From a virus: a stretch of 40,987 bases of DNA. The stretch lies in the IMG/VR virus record IMGVR_UViG_3300025687_000106, positions 1 through 40,987 of that record. One strand, 5' to 3'. This document shows positions 4,040-40,406 of the stretch, piece after piece. The position numbers and the translations under genes are program-made. Under the pieces are notes generated by a model. It was not told the DNA's origin and did not search any database. It saw only the letters and a program-made list of their open reading frames with translations. Position 1 is the first letter of the stretch, and each line of letters starts with the position of its first letter.

Positions 4040-4069
4040 CATGATTTAAACAATGAGAGAGACACTTTA
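4040..4069 (+). repeat. 30-bp exact repeat shared with 40005-40034
   Basis: Thirty identical bases recur 36 kb away inside the coiled-coil gene. Here they lie in a 14-codon open frame (4031-4075) that encodes the same HDLNNERDTL peptide. The copy carries the GAGACA promoter-like motif. It looks like a transplanted gene fragment or a mobile promoter piece. Confidence 0.85.
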
Positions 4070-4569: not shown

Positions 4570-4609
4570 TTAGTGAAATGTAATACTGTATTTAAAAAAT
4601 AAAAAAAAA

Positions 4610-6009: not shown

Positions 6010-7073
6010 TGATATATATAATCCCATTAGGAGACCAATTCCCTACAACGCAATTATTAGATTATAATAAAATGAGACCTGATGTTTACTATATATTACA
6101 TTCTTTAGAATGAGAAGAAGTAAAAATAATATGTAATACAAGAAATAAATATCAGATAGAAAATAAACATTATAATTTATTGGATTATAATGAATTAGAT
6201 TTAAAAATAAATGAAAATGATATACTTATTATATACAATACACCTTTTATTAATTTTTGATGATTATGGTGAAATGAATATAAGAAACAAATAGAATTTA
6301 TTAATAGATTTAATAATAATAAAGTTTATACATATGTTTTTGATTTAAATAAATCTTTTAGTTTTAAAATGATAAATAAGATTTGTGATAAATTTAATTT
6401 AGAAAAACAAAAAACTATAGATATTATTTCAAATTCTACATTTTTAAGTTGAAATTTATATAATAGAGATAAAATGATAGAAATATATTCAGAACAATGA
6501 ATAAATGTAAAAGAATTTATTTATATACCTGTTATATGAAATGTAAGAAATTTAATAGAATATAAAGAAATAAAAGAAGAACCACTTTATGATACTATTT
6601 ATTATTGAACTACTCGTTGATGAGCAAGAAATAAATTTATAAAAAAGTATTATGAAGATATGGAATGAAATCATTTATTAATATGACCATGGAATAAAAT
6701 ATTAAATAATGATAATCACTTTTATAAAAGCAAAACACAATTTAATGAATTATATAATCTTATTAATAATTCTAAGGTATCTATAATGACGTGAGATGAA
6801 AGTTATTATAACAATAGTATACATCATAGATTAATTGAATTAAGTTTATGTGGTACACTTATTCTTATTGATTATGATTATGATATAGAATATAAAATAT
6901 TTTGAGAAGAAAATAAACATTGGTATATTGAGAATAAAGAAGATGTACATAATATGATAAAATTTTTAAAAAATAATCCTAAATTAAGAACAAAATATAT
7001 AAAATATCAAAGAGAACTTTTAGAACAAAAATTTAATACTTATACAAAATTACAATATGAAAGATTTATATAA
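6009..7073 (+). CDS. GT-B-like glycosyltransferase, possible DNA-base glucosyltransferase
   Basis: 354 aa. The C-terminal half has the CgeB/GT-B-type layout: IYYGTTRGGARNKF (a loop like the second nucleotide-binding domain start), then LLIGPW, then SKVSIMTGDESYYNNSIHHRLIELSLCGTLILID and a helical tail with NPKLRTKYIKYQRELL. The N-terminal half is a Rossmann-like domain. It shares 17 bp with the downstream thymidylate-synthase-family gene, so the two are translationally linked. That pairing recalls phages that glucosylate hydroxymethylated bases. Alternative: a surface or polysaccharide glycosyltransferase. Confidence 0.72.
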
Positions 7074-7890
7074 AAATATATTAAGAGATTTATTAGAAAA
7101 TTGAAATGACTCTGCACCAAGATGACAAAATATAAAAGAATTACTTAATTTTAGTGTAAAAATAGATGATATACTTAATGTATGATATGAATATCCATCA
7201 AGAAAATTTCTATATAAATATATATCAAGTGAATTATTATGGTATCTTTCATGAGATTTATCAGTAGATAATATATGACAATATGCTAATTTATGGAATA
7301 CTATTCAAAATGAAGATTGATTAGTAAATTCAAATTATTGATATTTAGTATTTTATAGAGATATTTTAACAAATAATTGATGAAATCAATACGAATGGGC
7401 ACTTAATAGTTTAAAACAAGATAAAGAAAGTAGACAAGCATTTATAAGATATAATCATGATTGATGTCAAGAACTATTTGAAAAAGATGTGATATGTACA
7501 TATTATCAACAATTTTTTATAAGAGATAATCAATTACATTGTATTAACTCAATGAGAAGTAATGATATTATATATGGATTTACTGCGGATGTTGTATGGT
7601 TTAGTTTAGTACATCAAAGTTTATATTTAGATTTAAAAGAAACTTATCCTGAATTAGAACTATGATGTATGTGGCATAATGCTAATTCAATGCATATATA
7701 TGAACCAATGTTTAATAAAGCTAAACAACTTATTTTAGAAGAATGAACAAATATAAAAATAGAACTGAAACAATCTTTATATGAACAATTAGATAAAGAT
7801 TATGATAAATTATGGGAAATACTAAAATATACTACAAACTATAAACAATTTATTGAAAATAACTTTTTTATTAAAATAACAAAAGAATAA
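7057..7890 (+). CDS. thymidylate-synthase family enzyme, predicted dCMP hydroxymethylase
   Basis: 277 aa with the core of the ThyA fold: catalytic Cys147 in DVICTYYQQFFI, phosphate-binding R167-S168 in SMRSND, and H213-Y215 in MHIY. At the position of the Asn that selects dUMP in thymidylate synthase (E. coli LPFN) this protein has Asp178 (FTAD). An Asp there is the known hallmark of T4-type dCMP hydroxymethylase. The Pro before the catalytic Cys is Ile. I therefore predict 5-hydroxymethyl-dCMP formation. Neighbours (dUTPase, MazG, glycosyltransferase) fit a modified-cytosine pathway. Confidence 0.85.
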
Positions 7891-8063
7891 TGAAACAACT
7901 CCTAACTAATAAACAATTCAATAATGCTATAAAACAATTAGAAGATGTTCTTAAAAAAAGATGATATGAACTACTTTTTAATAATACATGATTTAATATA
8001 ATAGAAAAACCTAAAATAGAATTTAAGTCTATGAAAAATCAGGAAACTAAAAATAAGACATAA
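7890..8063 (+). CDS. small basic protein (57 aa)
   Basis: Starts on the last base of the preceding stop codon. Mainly helical and Lys-rich. Its final codons lie inside the 55-bp conserved motif at 8051-8105. No family recognised. Confidence 0.5.
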
Positions 8064-8105
8064 AAACCGGATTAACTAAACTTAATTATATCTATTGTGG
8101 TAACT
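8051..8105 (+). other. conserved noncoding motif, copy 1
   Basis: Shares AAATAAGACATAAAAAC (17/17) and TATTGTGGTAACT (13/13) with 32702-32754, with 24-26 bp between the two blocks in both copies. The downstream part can fold: TGTG/CACA here, ATTGT/ACAAT in copy 2. Both copies lie upstream of a TTTACA promoter and beside one of the two leader-RNA modules. Function unknown. Confidence 0.75.
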
Positions 8106-8187
8106 CACAGAAAGTAAAATAAAAAAAATAAAAAAAGTATAAAAAAGTGTTAAAATAAACTAAAAATTTAAAAAATAAAAAAAAAGT

Positions 8188-8215
8188 TTTACATTTTAAA
8201 ATAATTAATTAATAT
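8188..8215 (+). promoter_or_regulatory. promoter TTTACA-N16-TAATAT
   Basis: TTTACA 8188-8193, TAATAT 8210-8215. The expected start near 8222 coincides with the palindrome TATCATTTAATGATA (8221-8235), so the RNA would begin with a hairpin. Confidence 0.78.
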
Positions 8216-8220
8216 ATAAA

Positions 8221-8327
8221 TATCATTTAATGATACACAAAACATAAACCTCATAGTGTTTGAAGTCTATCCAACTTAGTACACTATGGATAGACGCTAA
8301 GTAATAGATTTTAAATATATAGAGGTT
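8221..8327 (+). ncRNA. pseudoknotted leader RNA, module 1
   Basis: Three interleaved helices: A 8252-8259 (CATAGTGT) with A' 8281-8288; B 8265-8272 (GTCTATCC) with B' 8288-8295; C 8274-8279 (ACTTAG) with C' 8297-8302. One base (8288) is shared by A' and B'. AACCTC 8247-8252 can pair with GAGGTT 8322-8327 as an outer helix. AACTTAGT 8273-8280 is also perfectly complementary to the terminator 5' arm ACTAAGTT 8333-8340, so C can choose between C' and the terminator. Module 2 on the minus strand at 32.5 kb has the same order with different sequences. Confidence 0.8.
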
Positions 8328-8368
8328 AAAAAACTAAGTTGGTATTAATTTATTAACTTAGTTTTTTT
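8328..8368 (+). terminator. leader terminator abutting the start codon
   Basis: A-run and ACTAAGTT pair with AACTTAGT and a T-run; the seven Ts end immediately before the ATG at 8369. There is no room for a Shine-Dalgarno sequence. The hairpin likely limits read-through into the gene. Confidence 0.8.
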
Positions 8369-8941
8369 ATGCAATTAGTTAAAGATATAAATACATTTTT
8401 TAGAAAAGATAAACAATATTGAATAAATGAATTATTTAAAGTAATGTATTCATTTTGTATTGAACAAAATAATTGTTTTATGTTAACGAGTACATATAAA
8501 ACTAAATGATTAAATAGAAATAATCATAGAAAAATAATGTGATTATTAAAAAAATATAAATTTGTAAAAAGTTGGAAAGTATATAATTCTAAATATAAAA
8601 AGAAATGTACTTACTATAGTTTATCCACAAAATTATATAATATATGTAGAAAAATATCAACAAAATTAGTTAATAAATATAATTTTATACAATTACATAA
8701 TGATATTAATATAAATGATGTAAAAATATTTATAAAAAATATATATAAAAAAACTGAATTTATTATTGATACTAATACTAAAATAACGAAACATATTTTT
8801 AGATTAAAATGAATAATCTATAAATTATTTAGAGATAATCAATGAATAAAAATATCACAAAATATATGATTTAATAAAATAAGAATATATAATTTTATTG
8901 AATTTAATAATTTAGTAATGAAATGATATGAAAAACAATAA
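8369..8941 (+). CDS. leader-controlled basic protein, module 1 (winged-helix-like)
   Basis: 190 aa, Lys-rich. The N-terminal ~85 residues (YGINELFKVMY, KTKGLNRNNHRKIMGLLKKY, then KSWKVYN and CTYYSLS) read like a winged helix: helices followed by a beta wing. A second basic alpha/beta part follows. It is clearly paralogous to the minus-strand gene at 31914-32462, with roughly half of the first 85 residues identical by eye, including DIN.FF, YGI.ELFK, KGLNRN and KSWK. Function unknown: autoregulatory DNA/RNA-binding protein or a toxin of a type III-like pair. Its end overlaps the next gene by 14 bp. Confidence 0.8.
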
Positions 8942-9296
8942 ATATGAAGAATATTTTTCTCAATGGATGTATGATAATTTACCTCCAAGTGATTTAGGTA
9001 TAATAATCCAAGATATTGATGCTATCATACAAAATTATAAAACTAAACGCTTTATGATTATTGAACTCAAAACAAGAGGAAATAATGTTACGAAATCACA
9101 AAGAGCTTTCTATTCAATGCTCAATGAAAGATTATATAAAACAAATAAAACAGATTGATGGGAATATGTATGAACAAATTTAATACGTTTTGAATGAACA
9201 AACTTCTATGACTGAAACGTTTTTCTTAATAATCAACTCACAGATGAATATAAACTTCAACAATTTATATTAAAAGAACTATGATATATTAACTAG
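8928..9296 (+). CDS. PD-(D/E)XK-like nuclease-fold protein
   Basis: 122 aa. IIIQDIDAIIQNYKTKRFMIIELKTRG gives an Asp pair, a beta hairpin and ELK, the D...E-x-K arrangement of restriction-type nucleases; TKSQRAFYSMLNERL continues as the usual helix with a Gln. Overlaps the preceding gene by 14 bp, so it is downstream of the same leader RNA. Substrate unknown; a role in processing DNA ends or in restriction of other DNA are both possible. Confidence 0.65.
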
Positions 9297-12853: not shown

Positions 12854-13059
12854 AAAACCTATTTCCATTCACAGTTCAAGAACTCAAGGATGGAACACAA
12901 GAAGTGATTGATGATGAAAATCCAGCTTACACTTATATTGGTAATATTCGCAGGAAGACCTTTTCCCTGCTTGACCTAAGGGAGAAAGAAGAATACTTTA
13001 AATTAAGTGTAAGTGAGAGAGAGAAGTATTTGATAGATAAGGCTGTTAATAGATTTTAA
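12844..13059 (+). CDS. unknown 71-aa protein
   Basis: No in-frame UGA. The sequence (FTVQELKDGTQEVIDDENPAYTY) looks like a small soluble fold with a basic C-terminus. Base use is richer in C/G than its neighbours. No family recognised. Confidence 0.6.
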   Translation: MKLKNLFPFTVQELKDGTQEVIDDENPAYTYIGNIRRKTFSLLDLREKEEYFKLSVSEREKYLIDKAVNRF

Positions 13060-30291: not shown

Positions 30292-31917
30292 ATGAATAAA
30301 GAGAAAGAAATAGTTTCATTGGAACAATTACATTTACAAAAAATACAAAAAATTATTAAAGAAAAATGTAAAATTTTAAATGAAGCAGCAAAATCTGATG
30401 AAACTAAACAAGTACTTATAGAAATATGTAAAAAAGACCCTATCTACTTTTTTACTTATTTTTTAGTTACAGACCGTAATCCTGGTTTAATTCCTGAACA
30501 ATATTGAAATGAAATACCTTTTATACTATTTGAATTTCAAGAAGAATTTATTAAAGATGCTTGGGATTGTATATTAATGTGAAGATTACCTCCTGAAGAA
30601 AGAACTGAACCAACTGATATGTTTAGTGAAAAATCTCGTCAAATGTGATTCTCATGGTTATTTGCTTGATTACAACTTTATGCTTATATATTTCATGATA
30701 TGAAATCTTTATATATATCAATGAAAGCAGATGAGGTAGATAGAGCATGAGATATTAAATCACATTTTGAAAAGATTCGTTTTATGATACGTAATCTACC
30801 TCAATGGATATTACCAAAATGATTAAATAAAGAATCAGGTACAGAACATAATAAATCTATGGTTATTTCTCGTTGAGATTGAACTTGAGTTATTAAATGA
30901 GAATCTGCTAATCCTAATGCTTGAAGATGAGGTACTACAGCTTTTACAATCTTTGATGAAATGGCTTTTATGCAATATGCTCAAGCTATTAATATGGCAA
31001 TAGCTTCTTCTACTCCTTGTCGTTTCTTTAATAGTACACCAAACTGAGAATGAAATGAGTATTATAGAATGAGAAAATTAGCAGTTGATTGAAAAATAAG
31101 ATATCATTCTTGCATGCGGTACGAAAATCCTTTTTATACTAAAGAATGGTATAAATGGAGAACTGAGTCTATGACTAAAACCCAAATTGCTCAAGAAATT
31201 TTAATAGACTATAATACTGCATTAGTTTGACGTGTATATCCAGAATATAAACATTGAACAGAATTAATTGAATATGATGATAGTTTACCGTTGTATATAG
31301 GGATTGATAATTCACATGGTGGTCAAGATAACAATGCTCTCGTTGTATTACAAAAAGATTGACATTATTTTAATATTATTGATAGTTGTGAATTCAATTG
31401 TAGTCCTAGACAAATGGCAGAAATAATGGCTAAACAACCTACTATACAAATGAGTAAAAAACAATTGGATTTTTATAATAAATATAGAGAAATGAAATTA
31501 CCTATATTTGTAAGTGATTGTTATGATACACATACTTCAGTTTGAGATAATACAATATTTTGATATTATCAAGATGTATGAATATTTTTAAATATACCAT
31601 CTACTAGAAAAAAACAAGAACAAATACAAATAGTAAGTTCTAATTTACATAGAGTAAGAGTAAGTGAAACTTGTGCAGATTTTAGTTCATGTATACAAAA
31701 TTCTATTTATCCTGAAATTAAAGAAAATAGTATGAGAACTACTCCAGCTACTTTACCAGTTCATTCTTGGGCGAGTCATATAAGGACAAGTTTTGAATAT
31801 TTAATTGTATGGTTAATAGAACAAGAAAAATATACTAATGTAAAACCTAAGAGAATAGCAACAGAAGAAAGAAATCCAATAACTTGAGAAGTAGAAACTA
31901 AATATGTCTATATTTAA
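30292..31917 (+). CDS. terL: terminase large subunit
   Basis: Packaging ATPase/nuclease, 541 aa. Walker-A-like SRQMGFS at residues 115-121 (Gly from UGA), a coupling region with SMKADEVDRAGDIKSHFEKIRF, Walker B TIFDEMAF with D222-E223, then STPNGEGNEYY. The nuclease part begins at YIGIDNSHGGQDNNALVVL (D339) and includes FVSDCYDTH with a later acidic residue, as in RNase H-like terminases. The length is normal. It is unusual that the minus-strand gene is inserted between it and the portal; their stop codons overlap. Confidence 0.93.
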
Positions 31918-32462
31918 GTTTTTTTCATAATTAAATGATTAAATTCAAATATTGTATATATTGTTTTTCTTAAATTATTTCTTTCTGTTATTAACCATAG
32001 TCATTTACTTTTAAATAAACAATATAAAACTCATCGTAACCTAAATAATCTTTTTCACTCAAATATAATAAATTCAGTTTTAGGATACATTTTTTTTATA
32101 AATTGTTGTATCTTTTCGATTCTCATTCATTCTTTTAATTCAATATATGTAGATTTTTTACTTAATTTAACTATAATATCTCTACAAATCATATATAAAT
32201 CATTACTTATACTTCTATAAGTACATACTTTTCAATATGTTTTATTATATTTTTTCCAACTCTTTATTTTTCAAGCTTTTTCTAATAAATCTAATATTTT
32301 TCTTAAACTATTTCTATTTAATCATTTAACTTGATATGTAGTAGTTAATAAAAAACTATTATTATTTTCTATACTCTTAGTATAAAAAGTCTTAAATAAT
32401 TCAGTTATTCAATAATCTTTATTTTTTTTAAAAAATCAATTTATATCTTGTATTATTCTCAT
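31914..32462 (-). CDS. leader-controlled basic protein, module 2 (winged-helix-like)
   Basis: 182 aa, the only clear minus-strand gene. Paralogue of the 8369 protein: DINGFFKKNKDYGITELFKTFY, QVKGLNRNSLRKILDLLEKAGKIKSWKKYN, CTYRSISNDLYMICRDI, then FIKKMYPKTEFII and IFEFNHLIMK at matching positions. A helix-helix-wing layout is likely in the first 85 residues. It has its own promoter, structured leader and terminator. Its stop overlaps the terL stop. The position between terL and portal is that of a moron. Confidence 0.82.
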
Positions 32463-32465
32463 AAT

Positions 32466-32492
32466 AAAAAAAACTAGTAATTAATACTAGCT
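32466..32492 (-). terminator. leader terminator abutting the module 2 start
   Basis: On the minus strand CTAGTATTAATTACTAG is followed by eight Ts and then ATTATG. AGCTAGT at its 5' side is complementary to ACTAGCT inside the upstream RNA (32578-32572). No Shine-Dalgarno sequence fits. Confidence 0.8.
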
Positions 32493-32612
32493 CTTTTTAT
32501 CTTTTACTAAAATCTTAACATAATAAATCTTTTTTTTCTTCTTAGTGTCTTGACCAAAAGCATAACTAAGAAGCTAGTCAAGACTTACTATGCTAAGGTT
32601 TTTAATTTTAGT
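32493..32612 (-). ncRNA. pseudoknotted leader RNA, module 2
   Basis: On the minus strand, three interleaved helices in the order A-B-C-A'-B'-C': A AGCATA (32594-32589) with A' TATGCT (32564-32559); B GTCTTGAC (32584-32577) with B' GTCAAGAC (32554-32547); C CTTCTTAGT (32573-32565) with C' ACTAAGAAG (32546-32538). B pairs 8/8 and C pairs 9/9. The segment ACTAGCT (32578-32572) can instead pair with the terminator 5' arm. Same topology as module 1 with different sequences, so pairing is conserved by covariation. Confidence 0.8.
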
Positions 32613-32618
32613 AATTAC

Positions 32619-32646
32619 TTTATATATATTTTTTTTAGTTTGTAAA
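32619..32646 (-). promoter_or_regulatory. minus-strand promoter TTTACA-N16-TATAAA
   Basis: TTTACA on 32646-32641, spacer 32640-32625 (16), TATAAA on 32624-32619. It fires toward the leader RNA and gene of module 2. Confidence 0.75.
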
Positions 32647-32701
32647 ATCTTTTTTATATAATAATAATAAATTATATAATTTAAGTATGTTGTATGAACT
32701 A

Positions 32702-32754
32702 AAATAAGACATAAAAACTTCATTATCTAAACAATATATATTATTGTGGTAACT
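32702..32754 (+). other. conserved noncoding motif, copy 2
   Basis: AAATAAGACATAAAAAC at 32702-32718 and TATTGTGGTAACT at 32742-32754 match copy 1 at 8051-8105. Inverted ATTGT/ACAAT can form a small hairpin. It lies between the divergent promoters at 32646 (-) and 32785 (+). Confidence 0.75.
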
Positions 32755-32784
32755 GAAACAATTGTAAAACTTTTTTTTAAAATA

Positions 32785-32812
32785 TTTACAAAATAATACA
32801 AAAATATAAAAT
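32785..32812 (+). promoter_or_regulatory. promoter TTTACA-N16-TAAAAT for the head genes
   Basis: TTTACA 32785-32790, TAAAAT 32807-32812. TAACAT at 32821-32826 pairs with ATGTTA at 32840-32845, which contains the portal start codon, so the AUG may be partly occluded. Confidence 0.78.
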
Positions 32813-32839
32813 AAAATATATAACATTAACTTAAAAAAT

Positions 32840-34792
32840 ATGTTAGTTTGAAATGAATCTAAAAATACAGAGAAAGAATTAGAAACAATAAAACAAATAA
32901 CTGAACCAGAAGTAAAACCATATATTTCAAGTAAAGAAGATGAAGAGATTATTTGATTTATTACTACAAGAAAAAGACTTATGGCTGCTAAAAGAAGTCA
33001 AATGGATAAATCTTGGAAACAATATCAAAAACAATATGAAGCATTATTTGTACCTTATAGTGATTGAAGAAGTTCTAGTAATGTACCTTTAGAAAGAGCT
33101 ATAGTTGAATTATTTGTTGCAGAAGCTATTAAAAGACCTACTACATATAATTTTAATGCATGAATTGAATATGATTTTCAATCTCAAGTATTAGAAAGAG
33201 TATGGGAAGATGATTGGTCTATAAATAATAGAGATAATGAAATATTAGATAATGAGTATTTAACTGCTATATATGGTACATCTATTATATATAATGGTTA
33301 TAAAAGAAGTTATAGAGTTATAGAAGATTTTGATTGATATAATGAGGAAACTGGTAAAATAGATTATGAAAGAAAAATGCAAACAAAATCTGATATATTA
33401 TTAGAAAATATAGATATTAGATATTTTTGGATAGATGAAAGAGCAAATTCTATAGAAAAAGCTATTGATTGTATATATGAAAGTTATATTACATATGAAG
33501 AATTTAGAGAATTTTATTTAGATAATGAATATGATGATGAGAAATTAAATGCTATTGTTCCTACTTATCAAAAACAAGATGAACATAGACCTTATGTTAT
33601 TAATGAAGAAAGATGAGATTGAGAAGCTAAATTTGTTAAAATAACACAATATTGGAATACAAAATTAGATAGACATTATACTATAGCTAATGAAAATGTA
33701 TTAATTAAAAAACATCCTATATTGAATGCTACTCATTGTATACCTTTTACACCAAGACAATATGGTAAAAATTTATTTAGTATTTATTGATATGGTTTAT
33801 GTGAAGCTTTAGTTACATTCAAATCAGATATTAATAATTTAAGAGAAATGTTGATGGAAGCTATTAAAAAATCTAATCAAGATGTAATAGCTTTATGAAA
33901 TTGATTAGAATTTGATGGTAATAAATTCGCATATAATAATCAATTTATAACATTTAAAGGTAATTTACAATGAAATTTTCATCAATTATCTTGAACTCCA
34001 CCAAATCAATCTATATTTACATATTTACAAGAATTATTTAAACAAATAGCTATATTTACAGGTATAGATATAATGAATATATTATGAGAACCACAACAAA
34101 CAGCATATCAAACAGCTGTACAAAAAGAAAGTTCTTTACAAAGAGTAAATGTAGTACTTAAAAATAGAGATGCAGCATTTGAAAGAATAGCAAATCAACA
34201 TAAAGATAATTTACAAATGTTTTATCCATTAAAACTTGTGAGAGAATTGGTAAAAGTTGATAAAGAAAATAATCCTATGGAAGAATGAGAAGCTAAATAT
34301 CCTACTATAGAAACAACAAAAGTTAAAGGTAAAAGATTTGCAAAAGATTGAATAAAAGAAGTATTTGAAGTTACTCCTGAAAAAATAAGATGAAAAATTA
34401 AAATAGATGTAAGTACTGATTTAAATACTCCAACTATTAATGAAGTAGAAAAAGCACAAAAATCTGAATTTTTTATTAAATTAGCAGAAATAACAAATGC
34501 TTATAATGCAGATAAAGATTTAGAAAGTATTATACCTAAAAAGAAAGCTATTATGGACCTTGCTGAACTTAATAATATAGATATTATGAGAAGTGATAAT
34601 AATGAAGTTGCAGAAGAAAAACAAAAACTTTATGAAGAACTTCAAAGTATGATGAAAGGCACAAGAACACCACAACAAAGACCAAATTTTGAATGAATTA
34701 AAAAAGAAGCTGAACTACAAAATATGGCACAAGTTGCTCCAGAAGCAGCAGTTCAATGAGAATTACCTACTACACCTAATATAGCAAGATAA
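32840..34792 (+). CDS. portal protein
   Basis: 650 aa. Helical core regions including TTRKRLMAAKRSQMDKSWKQYQKQYE, then a beta-rich clip/stem portion, and IAIFTGIDIMNILGEPQQTAYQTAVQKESSLQRVNVVLKNRDAAFERIANQH, which is characteristic of portal stems in short-tailed phages. The size is in the range of P22-like portals. Its DNA-exit ring would be bound by terL. C-terminal third is coiled-coil and Gln-rich. Confidence 0.82.
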
Positions 34793-39794: not shown

Positions 39795-40406
39795 ATGAAA
39801 GTTATTAAATGACTTGAATTACAAAAACATTATCTTAAAGAAGCTGAAAAAGCTAGATTAGAAATGATTGAAGCTATTCAAGATAGAGATAAAGTGTTTT
39901 CTGAAATAAAAGAACAAAGAAATTGATTAAATATAATAAAAAAAGAAATAAATGAATTAGAAAATATATATAATCAAAAAAATATTGATTATAAGTGATT
40001 AGAACATGATTTAAACAATGAGAGAGACACTTTAGAGAAAAATATATATAAACATATAGAAACATCTAAACAAGTGTCTCTATCTTTACATAAATGAGAA
40101 GAAGAATTAGAAAAAATAAAAAAAGAGATAGAAAAATATAAAATTGATTTAAAAAGATTAAAAGAATTAAAAAAACAAGAAAAATATTTACAAAATGAAA
40201 TTCAAAAATTAAAACATCATAAATCTTTATATGAATTAGAATTAGATGAAAGAGAGAAATGAATGGATATGGAGAGAAAAATACTCGACGATTCTAAAAA
40301 AGAATTTAGTAAACAAGTAAATGAATTACAGAAAAAAGAAAAGAAATTAAATCTTAAAGAAAAGAGATTAAATGAATTAGAACAAAGTTTATTTTCTAAA
40401 AAATAA
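39795..40406 (+). CDS. coiled-coil protein (203 aa)
   Basis: Nearly all heptad-like Lys/Glu/Leu/Ile, with a long continuous coiled coil of about 180 residues. It carries the 30-bp repeat shared with 4040-4069 (peptide HDLNNERDTL). Likely a rod-like structural or assembly protein. No enzyme motif is visible. Confidence 0.6.
40005..40051 (+). repeat. 30-bp repeat with intragenic GAGACA motif
   Basis: 40005-40034 is identical to 4040-4069. GAGACACTTTA continues to TATATATAA (40043-40051), matching the terL promoter-like motif spacing. GAGACACTT and AAGTGTCTC (40068-40081 region) form an inverted repeat around it. Within a coding gene, so a promoter role would be internal. Confidence 0.6.

Follow-up and report, generated by a model that had tools for sequence, protein, structure and literature searches.

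Phages of Gracilibacteria and Absconditabacteria that read TGA as glycine are already known (PMC10746230), and this reading is common to them and to the window analyzed here, the whole stretch of 40,987 bases that makes up one virus record (G000). Control sites or cassettes, which the present window carries, do not appear in the abstract of that report. We also found no report of such sites in the literature on these hosts or among the titles listed for code-25 phages, with most subscription journals lying outside the coverage. The window is a phage contig using genetic code 25 (TGA = Gly). Translation table 11 gave just 10 frames of at least 80 residues, and the expected phage gene set opened up under translation table 25. 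Opposite the TGA codons of four window genes, relatives carried TGA 142 times and GGN 60 times, with TGG outside the 15 commonest codons; the alignments behind this count were built with TGA as glycine, and one near copy (L007) was left out of it.

The two-copy site that concerns us here is most readily compared with the operators of MarR/PadR-type regulators. Like them, it accompanies a predicted promoter whose gene codes for a small, perhaps winged-helix protein, and it does so at two loci. Unlike them, it is 55 bp long and, among the pairs listed, has no palindrome common to both copies, and the module protein encoded beside it has no family match. Nor does it overlap or adjoin a promoter in the MarR/PadR style, being 55 to 82 bases away from the −35 hexamers of the leaders and 30 from that of the portal gene. 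The cassette around the site, as opposed to the site itself, recalls type III toxin-antitoxin loci (ToxIN-like), which consist of a promoter, a structured RNA, a terminator and a protein gene; the order of elements is alike, and the protein has 180 to 190 residues. In contrast to those loci, the leaders contain no tandem repeats, the A/T-rich repeats lying outside them, and no type III toxin family was among the matches at E ≤1 in Pfam, PADLOC and NCBIfam. The features of both cassettes and their surroundings are as follows.

7057-7890: thymidylate synthase gene (Pfam, 1.5e-19)
7890-8063, + strand: 57-codon frame, opening on the final base of the stop codon of thymidylate synthase, its end overlapping copy 1
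8051-8067, + strand: copy 1, block A, AAATAAGACATAAAAAC, 17 exact bases (18 counting 8050)
8071-8081, + strand: copy 1, middle block, ATTAACTAAAC, 10 of 11 bases common with copy 2
8093-8105, + strand: copy 1, block B, TATTGTGGTAACT, 13 exact bases
8188-8215, + strand: predicted leader 1 promoter, TTTACA-16-TAATAT, from a consensus scan only
8247-8367, + strand: structured leader 1 with terminator-like hairpin, the T run ending at the start codon (z −8.24, 0 of 200 shuffles)
8369-8941, + strand: module 1 protein, 190 aa, its N-terminal part perhaps winged-helix
30292-31917: terminase gene, from matches to phage records
31914-32462, − strand: module 2 protein, 182 aa, 50% identical to the module 1 protein
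31917-32785: segment missing in six relatives, with the module 2 gene, its leader, the leader promoter and copy 2; edges approximate
32463-32602, − strand: structured leader 2 with terminator-like hairpin (z −8.72, 0 of 200 shuffles)
32617-32646, − strand: predicted leader 2 promoter, TTTACA-18-TAAAGT, from a consensus scan only
32702-32718, + strand: copy 2, block A, 17 exact bases
32722-32732, + strand: copy 2, middle block, ATTATCTAAAC, 10 of 11 bases common with copy 1
32742-32754, + strand: copy 2, block B, 13 exact bases
32785-32812, + strand: predicted portal promoter, TTTACA-16-TAAAAT, from a consensus scan
32840-34792: gene that we take to be portal-like, the name coming from its position

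The exact pair AAATAAGACATAAAAAC...TATTGTGGTAACT occurs twice in the window, at 8051-8105 and 32702-32754, both times on the + strand, and each half is exact at those two places only. Our scan of the window thus agrees with the first-pass annotation, which had placed the pair at these positions alone. The two blocks are separated as it described, by 25 bases in copy 1 and 23 in copy 2, which corrects its range of 24 to 26 bp. A third block, ATTA(A/T)CTAAAC, lies 3 bases 3' of block A in both copies, and its gap to block B differs by two bases between them; over the whole site, 43 of 55 columns are identical. The site had also been called noncoding. Copy 1 is nevertheless partly coding, in its first 13 bases: frame 7890-8063 ends within block A, its final three codons and stop occupying 8052-8063.

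Both modules share one layout, in which a predicted TTTACA promoter is followed by a structured leader, a terminator-like hairpin with a T run at or near the start codon, and the gene; each copy of the site lies 5' of one cassette's leader promoter. In module 1 the site has the orientation of the gene and ends 82 bases before TTTACA (8188). In module 2 it is opposite to the gene, lies 55 bases from the minus-strand TTTACA (32646) and ends 30 bases before the + strand TTTACA of the portal gene (32785). This bears out three earlier claims, namely that orientation relative to the gene is the same in module 1 and opposite in module 2, that the site lies 30 to 85 bp upstream of a + strand TTTACA (82 and 30 bases) and that it is not simply part of the leader. 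Counted from the site, the folded leaders begin 141 bases away in module 1 (about 8247, +) and 99 bases away in module 2 (32602, −). A leader distance of 75 to 140 bp had been given as well, which holds for 99, with 141 just over the range.

The leaders have diverged in sequence and keep one layout, segments A, B and C followed by their complements A', B' and C' (8252-8259/8281-8288, 8265-8273/8287-8295 and 8274-8279/8297-8302 in leader 1; 32594-32589/32564-32559, 32584-32577/32554-32547 and 32573-32565/32546-32538 in leader 2). A segment D is complementary to the 5' arm of the terminator-like hairpin (8271-8280/8333-8342 and 32578-32572/32492-32486, respectively), and the predicted lowest-energy folds also contain other pairs. 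As modelled, each leader looks like a bistable, pseudoknotted attenuator directly before the start codon. A simple terminator scan found no terminator near either copy of the site and missed the leaders' own hairpins too, which have too few G-C pairs for its rule. Between copy 1 and the leader 1 promoter, 8116-8184 is A-rich with repeats of about 9 to 11 bases and may be curved DNA. The end of module 1 is overlapped by a gene at 8928-9296 with a VRR-NUC match (5e-4) under the Pfam cut-off.

Single halves of the site are unremarkable, and the pair is remarkable. With 3 mismatches allowed, block A alone was seen 6 times against 3.3 expected (10 of 100 shuffles reached 6), and block B alone 26 times against 24.8. 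Local alignment of 7891-8250 with 32606-32860, by comparison, gave a score of 46 for the same strand; for opposite strands it was 21. A score of 46 was reached by none of 2,719 random window pairs of equal size (maximum, 33), the remainder of 3,000 drawn after near or module pairs were skipped, and by none of 2,000 order-1 Markov shuffles (maximum, 41). When the whole window was compared with itself, the site pair scored 36, and 20 order-3 Markov windows topped out at 23 to 32; three other pairs lay at 36 to 39 (39, 37 and an A-rich promoter pair equal at 36), and the module genes themselves scored 168. The match is bounded. Flanks are near chance upstream (P of 0.11 for 100 bases and 0.06 for 60 bases) and downstream (P of 0.42), leaving homology of the flanks unsupported, and the leader-promoter regions aligned in cassette orientation gave no clear match (P of 0.36).

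Other repeats were apparent in the window. The 23-base TTAATTTATAATAAAGAGATATG, which ends in ATG, is exact at 13056, 13640 and 15489, with a near copy at about 16052; its ATG starts a listed frame at 13056 (13076) and 16052 (16073), and no frame of at least 60 residues is listed for 13640 and 15489. Positions 4605 and 9380 both carry AAAAAGTAAAAATAATTTTACATTT, which holds the palindrome-like GTAAAAATAATTTTAC over a TTTACA hexamer; judging by these letters, a promoter with an operator is possible at both places. Among the direct repeats listed, the longest distant one is an exact 30-base repeat at 4040-4069 and 40005-40034, its second copy falling in the listed frame 39795-40406.

The module genes provide a yardstick for the age of the duplication. 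Their nucleotide identity is 66% (363/546), and the third codon base agrees at 78 of 91 identical residues (86%), compared with 85% in random draws from the same codons. As this agreement equals the codon-usage expectation, silent positions are saturated and retain no trace of common origin; with the paralogous genes saturated, the 30 identical bases of the site require selection or later copying. Later copying should have made the spacer match too, yet 12 of the 25 spacer columns differ (two are gaps). The concentration of mismatches in the spacer has a permutation P of 0.001, with blocks chosen after the fact, and the post hoc choice of block edges weakens the selection argument. From this comparison we infer that selection probably acts on the site.

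Searches for further copies covered viral contigs and genome contigs, with no hit to the exact two-block patterns in either, and 353 genomes of one Gracilibacteria class, again with none (0/353). Block A followed by ATTA occurs in 26 viral stretches, none of which fits block B anywhere within the following 60 bases with fewer than 4 mismatches out of 13. The middle block with block B occurs in four viral stretches, with no block A visible by eye within 60 bases 5'. A 65-base DNA search matched 14 of the 353 genomes at E ≤0.01 with pieces of 20 to 49 bases, none spanning both whole blocks; the best (L071) matches the surroundings of block A in 22 of 22 bases, lies in a reading frame that stays open for all 117 codons printed, and by eye has no block B within the next 200 bases. 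Among seven phage records, our own and six relatives, both blocks occur in the window only. Partial matches in two records were set aside as being of another kind: that in G003 (85% across 26 bases) falls in a frame that is open under code 25, and that in G004 reaches 89% across 19 bases. The search of relatives for the site beside such modules, which the first-pass annotation had recommended, therefore found no relative with the site, and the wide scatter away from modules that it named as counterevidence was not seen in the contigs and genomes searched.

No convincing family match for the module proteins came from Pfam, PHROGs, NCBIfam or PADLOC. AlphaFold gave a poor model (mean pLDDT of 49.3, pTM of 0.40, from an alignment of two rows), best in residues 51-90, the only part where the 10-residue mean pLDDT is 66 to 76, which form helix-strand-strand. 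Foldseek hits, the best at E of 0.0022 and none reaching 0.001, include TFIIE/TFE (TFE-alpha), MarR and PadR chains, and a profile search of solved structures listed an RRF2 regulator (E of 0.75) and a sperm protein (E of 0.91). A DNA-binding regulator is plausible. In viral contigs, one set of module-protein patterns picked out 235 stretches, none of which was confirmed, and a second set picked out none. No match at E of 1 was found for the module 1 protein against phages or the module 2 protein against plasmids, and searches of the six relative phages and of 8 genomes gave none either. A profile search of the 353 genomes returned 16 weak matches at E ≤0.05, the best being 2.6e-4 for one genome, which is weak for 353. 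Of five loci inspected (L051-L054 and L056), two resemble winged-helix regulators, L051 by its sequence and L056 by tblastn with the module 2 protein (E of 1.4e-5 for that locus alone), and three resemble nothing clear. Pattern and tblastn searches may overlook genes rich in TGA glycine codons.

We tentatively favor the reading that this well-supported yet unexplained conserved site, whose two copies, bounded extent and position are directly established, is recognized as double-stranded DNA over about 55 bp and may well be an operator for the cassettes' own protein. The two strict blocks and the weaker middle block would then belong to the cassette control region and be bound by the two paralogous module proteins or by one factor serving both cassettes. 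The bound protein would repress or activate nearby promoters, in both modules that of the leader; at module 2, binding could also affect the divergent portal promoter 30 bp away and so couple the cassette to the portal operon. Both DNA binding by the module proteins and its regulatory effect are what we infer from several lines of evidence: the match is far above chance and its flanks are near chance, each copy precedes the predicted promoter of its leader (82 and 55 bases from the −35 hexamer), the mismatches concentrate in the spacer, the module genes are saturated, the better-modelled part of the protein is helix-strand-strand with MarR, PadR and TFE-alpha chains in the fold list, and two weakly matching loci resemble winged-helix regulators.

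Consistent with a role of the DNA itself, RNA folding of both strands of both copies was no better than that of shuffles (z of 0.70, −0.32, 0.04 and 1.73), Rfam showed no family at the site and only two tRNAs in the window, and duplex pairing between site and leader was at chance level, with P below 0.05 in one of eight tests (0.045), so that leader-site pairing is unsupported. Taken together, these three results favor a function at the DNA level. The protein-binding site that had been among the first suggestions is favored too, the site being bounded, unstructured as RNA, placed among predicted promoters and neighbored by perhaps winged-helix proteins; the binding is putative.

Several observations count against an operator. 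Orientation and distance to the leader promoter differ (82 bp on the same strand, 55 bp on the opposite strand), which is unusual for an activator site; a repressor or architectural site fits such variation better than an activator that contacts RNA polymerase. A 17-base palindrome, 76% complementary, reaches from the middle block into block B in copy 2 (32723-32752), with none for copy 1 among the pairs listed (25 of 68 and 25 of 50). The model is poor, no fold match reaches E of 0.001 and no family match is convincing. The promoters are predicted from consensus, and shuffles yield similar numbers (4 sites versus 4.2 in module 1; 7 versus 4.3 in module 2), and the site is present in just two copies on one contig, with no relative found to carry it.

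A doubtful alternative is that the site serves mobility or recombination, a recombinase of the phage or host using it while the cassette travels between phages. The terminase gene matched 195 phage records (<60% identity), 16 of 20 among the matches listed carrying the annotation terminase large subunit. A terminase relative is encoded by six viral contigs; two of them (L006 and L007) are identical where printed, so that the independent cases number about five. The portal match starts 47 to 81 bases past the end of the terminase match in each of the six. In the window, 922 bases separate the two genes and contain module 2 and copy 2. Since a segment of about 870 bases is absent from 6/6 relatives, module 2 and copy 2 arrived together or as two insertions at one place. 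Every other long minus-strand frame is moreover antisense to a + strand gene, module 2 being the exception (frame list inspected by eye), and the differing orientation is what an independent site would permit. The 7-base direct repeat ATATTTA lies near both insertion edges (31910 and 32782); it is one of three 7-mers shared by the edges, all A/T only, and may be chance. The first-pass idea of a recombination site that moved with the module is supported in part: copy 2 lies inside the module 2 insertion, but the site, a single internal copy, is not at both ends. The cassette contains no recombinase. The neighbors of module 1 matched nothing in the relatives (just two of these, G003 and G004, are long), and the thymidylate synthase search yielded no relative able to show an empty site there.

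That a third factor unrelated to the module proteins, for instance a phage or host transcription factor, binds the site for the + strand promoters of leader 1 and the portal gene appears rather unlikely. It would explain why both copies are on the + strand, 82 and 30 bases upstream of a predicted TTTACA promoter. The portal TTTACA is found at a comparable place in three of the five relatives compared (L003, L004 and L005; not evident in L007 and L008, with L006 left out), but these three terminase-portal spacers have no site, and neither do the TTTACA regions at 4605 and 9380.

We consider it quite improbable that the site is a piece of a short + strand RNA or an RNA control element, and the small RNA proposed at first has little support from the folds, Rfam and pairing tests described above. 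In its favor, promoter-like sites end 28 bases before copy 1 (7993-8022, 9 of 12 matches) and 21 bases before copy 2 (32653-32680, 10 of 12 matches), placing both copies near a possible transcript start, and the fold predicted for copy 1 has block B in a 5-pair hairpin that by eye is possible in copy 2. Such promoter-like sites are, however, about as many in shuffles, that of copy 1 lies inside frame 7890-8063, and no terminator is listed near the site, in the scan that also misses the leaders' hairpins. A minus-strand promoter-like site (32768-32740) overlaps block B of copy 2.

Chance, or a functionless leftover of recent short copying, has very little probability. Only two copies on one contig are at hand and the blocks were picked because they match, but no real pair or shuffle reached the score, and a recent copy should match in the spacer as well. 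Least probable of all is a replication origin or initiator site, for which the AT content of 87 to 90% on the promoter sides of the copies and the block B reverse complement GTTACCACA, which resembles a degenerate DnaA box, would speak, and which is unsupported given the fit of 6 of 9 bases by eye, the lack of a GC-skew switch at either copy (the only negative 1-kb bin, 32001-33000, contains the minus-strand module 2 gene) and the presence of A/T-rich repeats only, with no iteron array.

If the site were one for mobility, it would explain the spread of the cassettes. A broader scheme, unlikely in our estimate, would make site and leader a portable two-layer control cassette of a phage with an altered genetic code, in which a regulator from a family lacking known relatives is expressed through an RNA attenuator, the 55-bp site travels with each insertion and a newly inserted cassette thereby gains control of the gene next to it, here at the portal promoter. 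Should the module proteins bind the site, as under the operator reading that we prefer, an inserted regulatory cassette can control a phage structural operon, and the site would offer a handle on the regulon of a protein family without known relatives in phages of uncultured bacteria.
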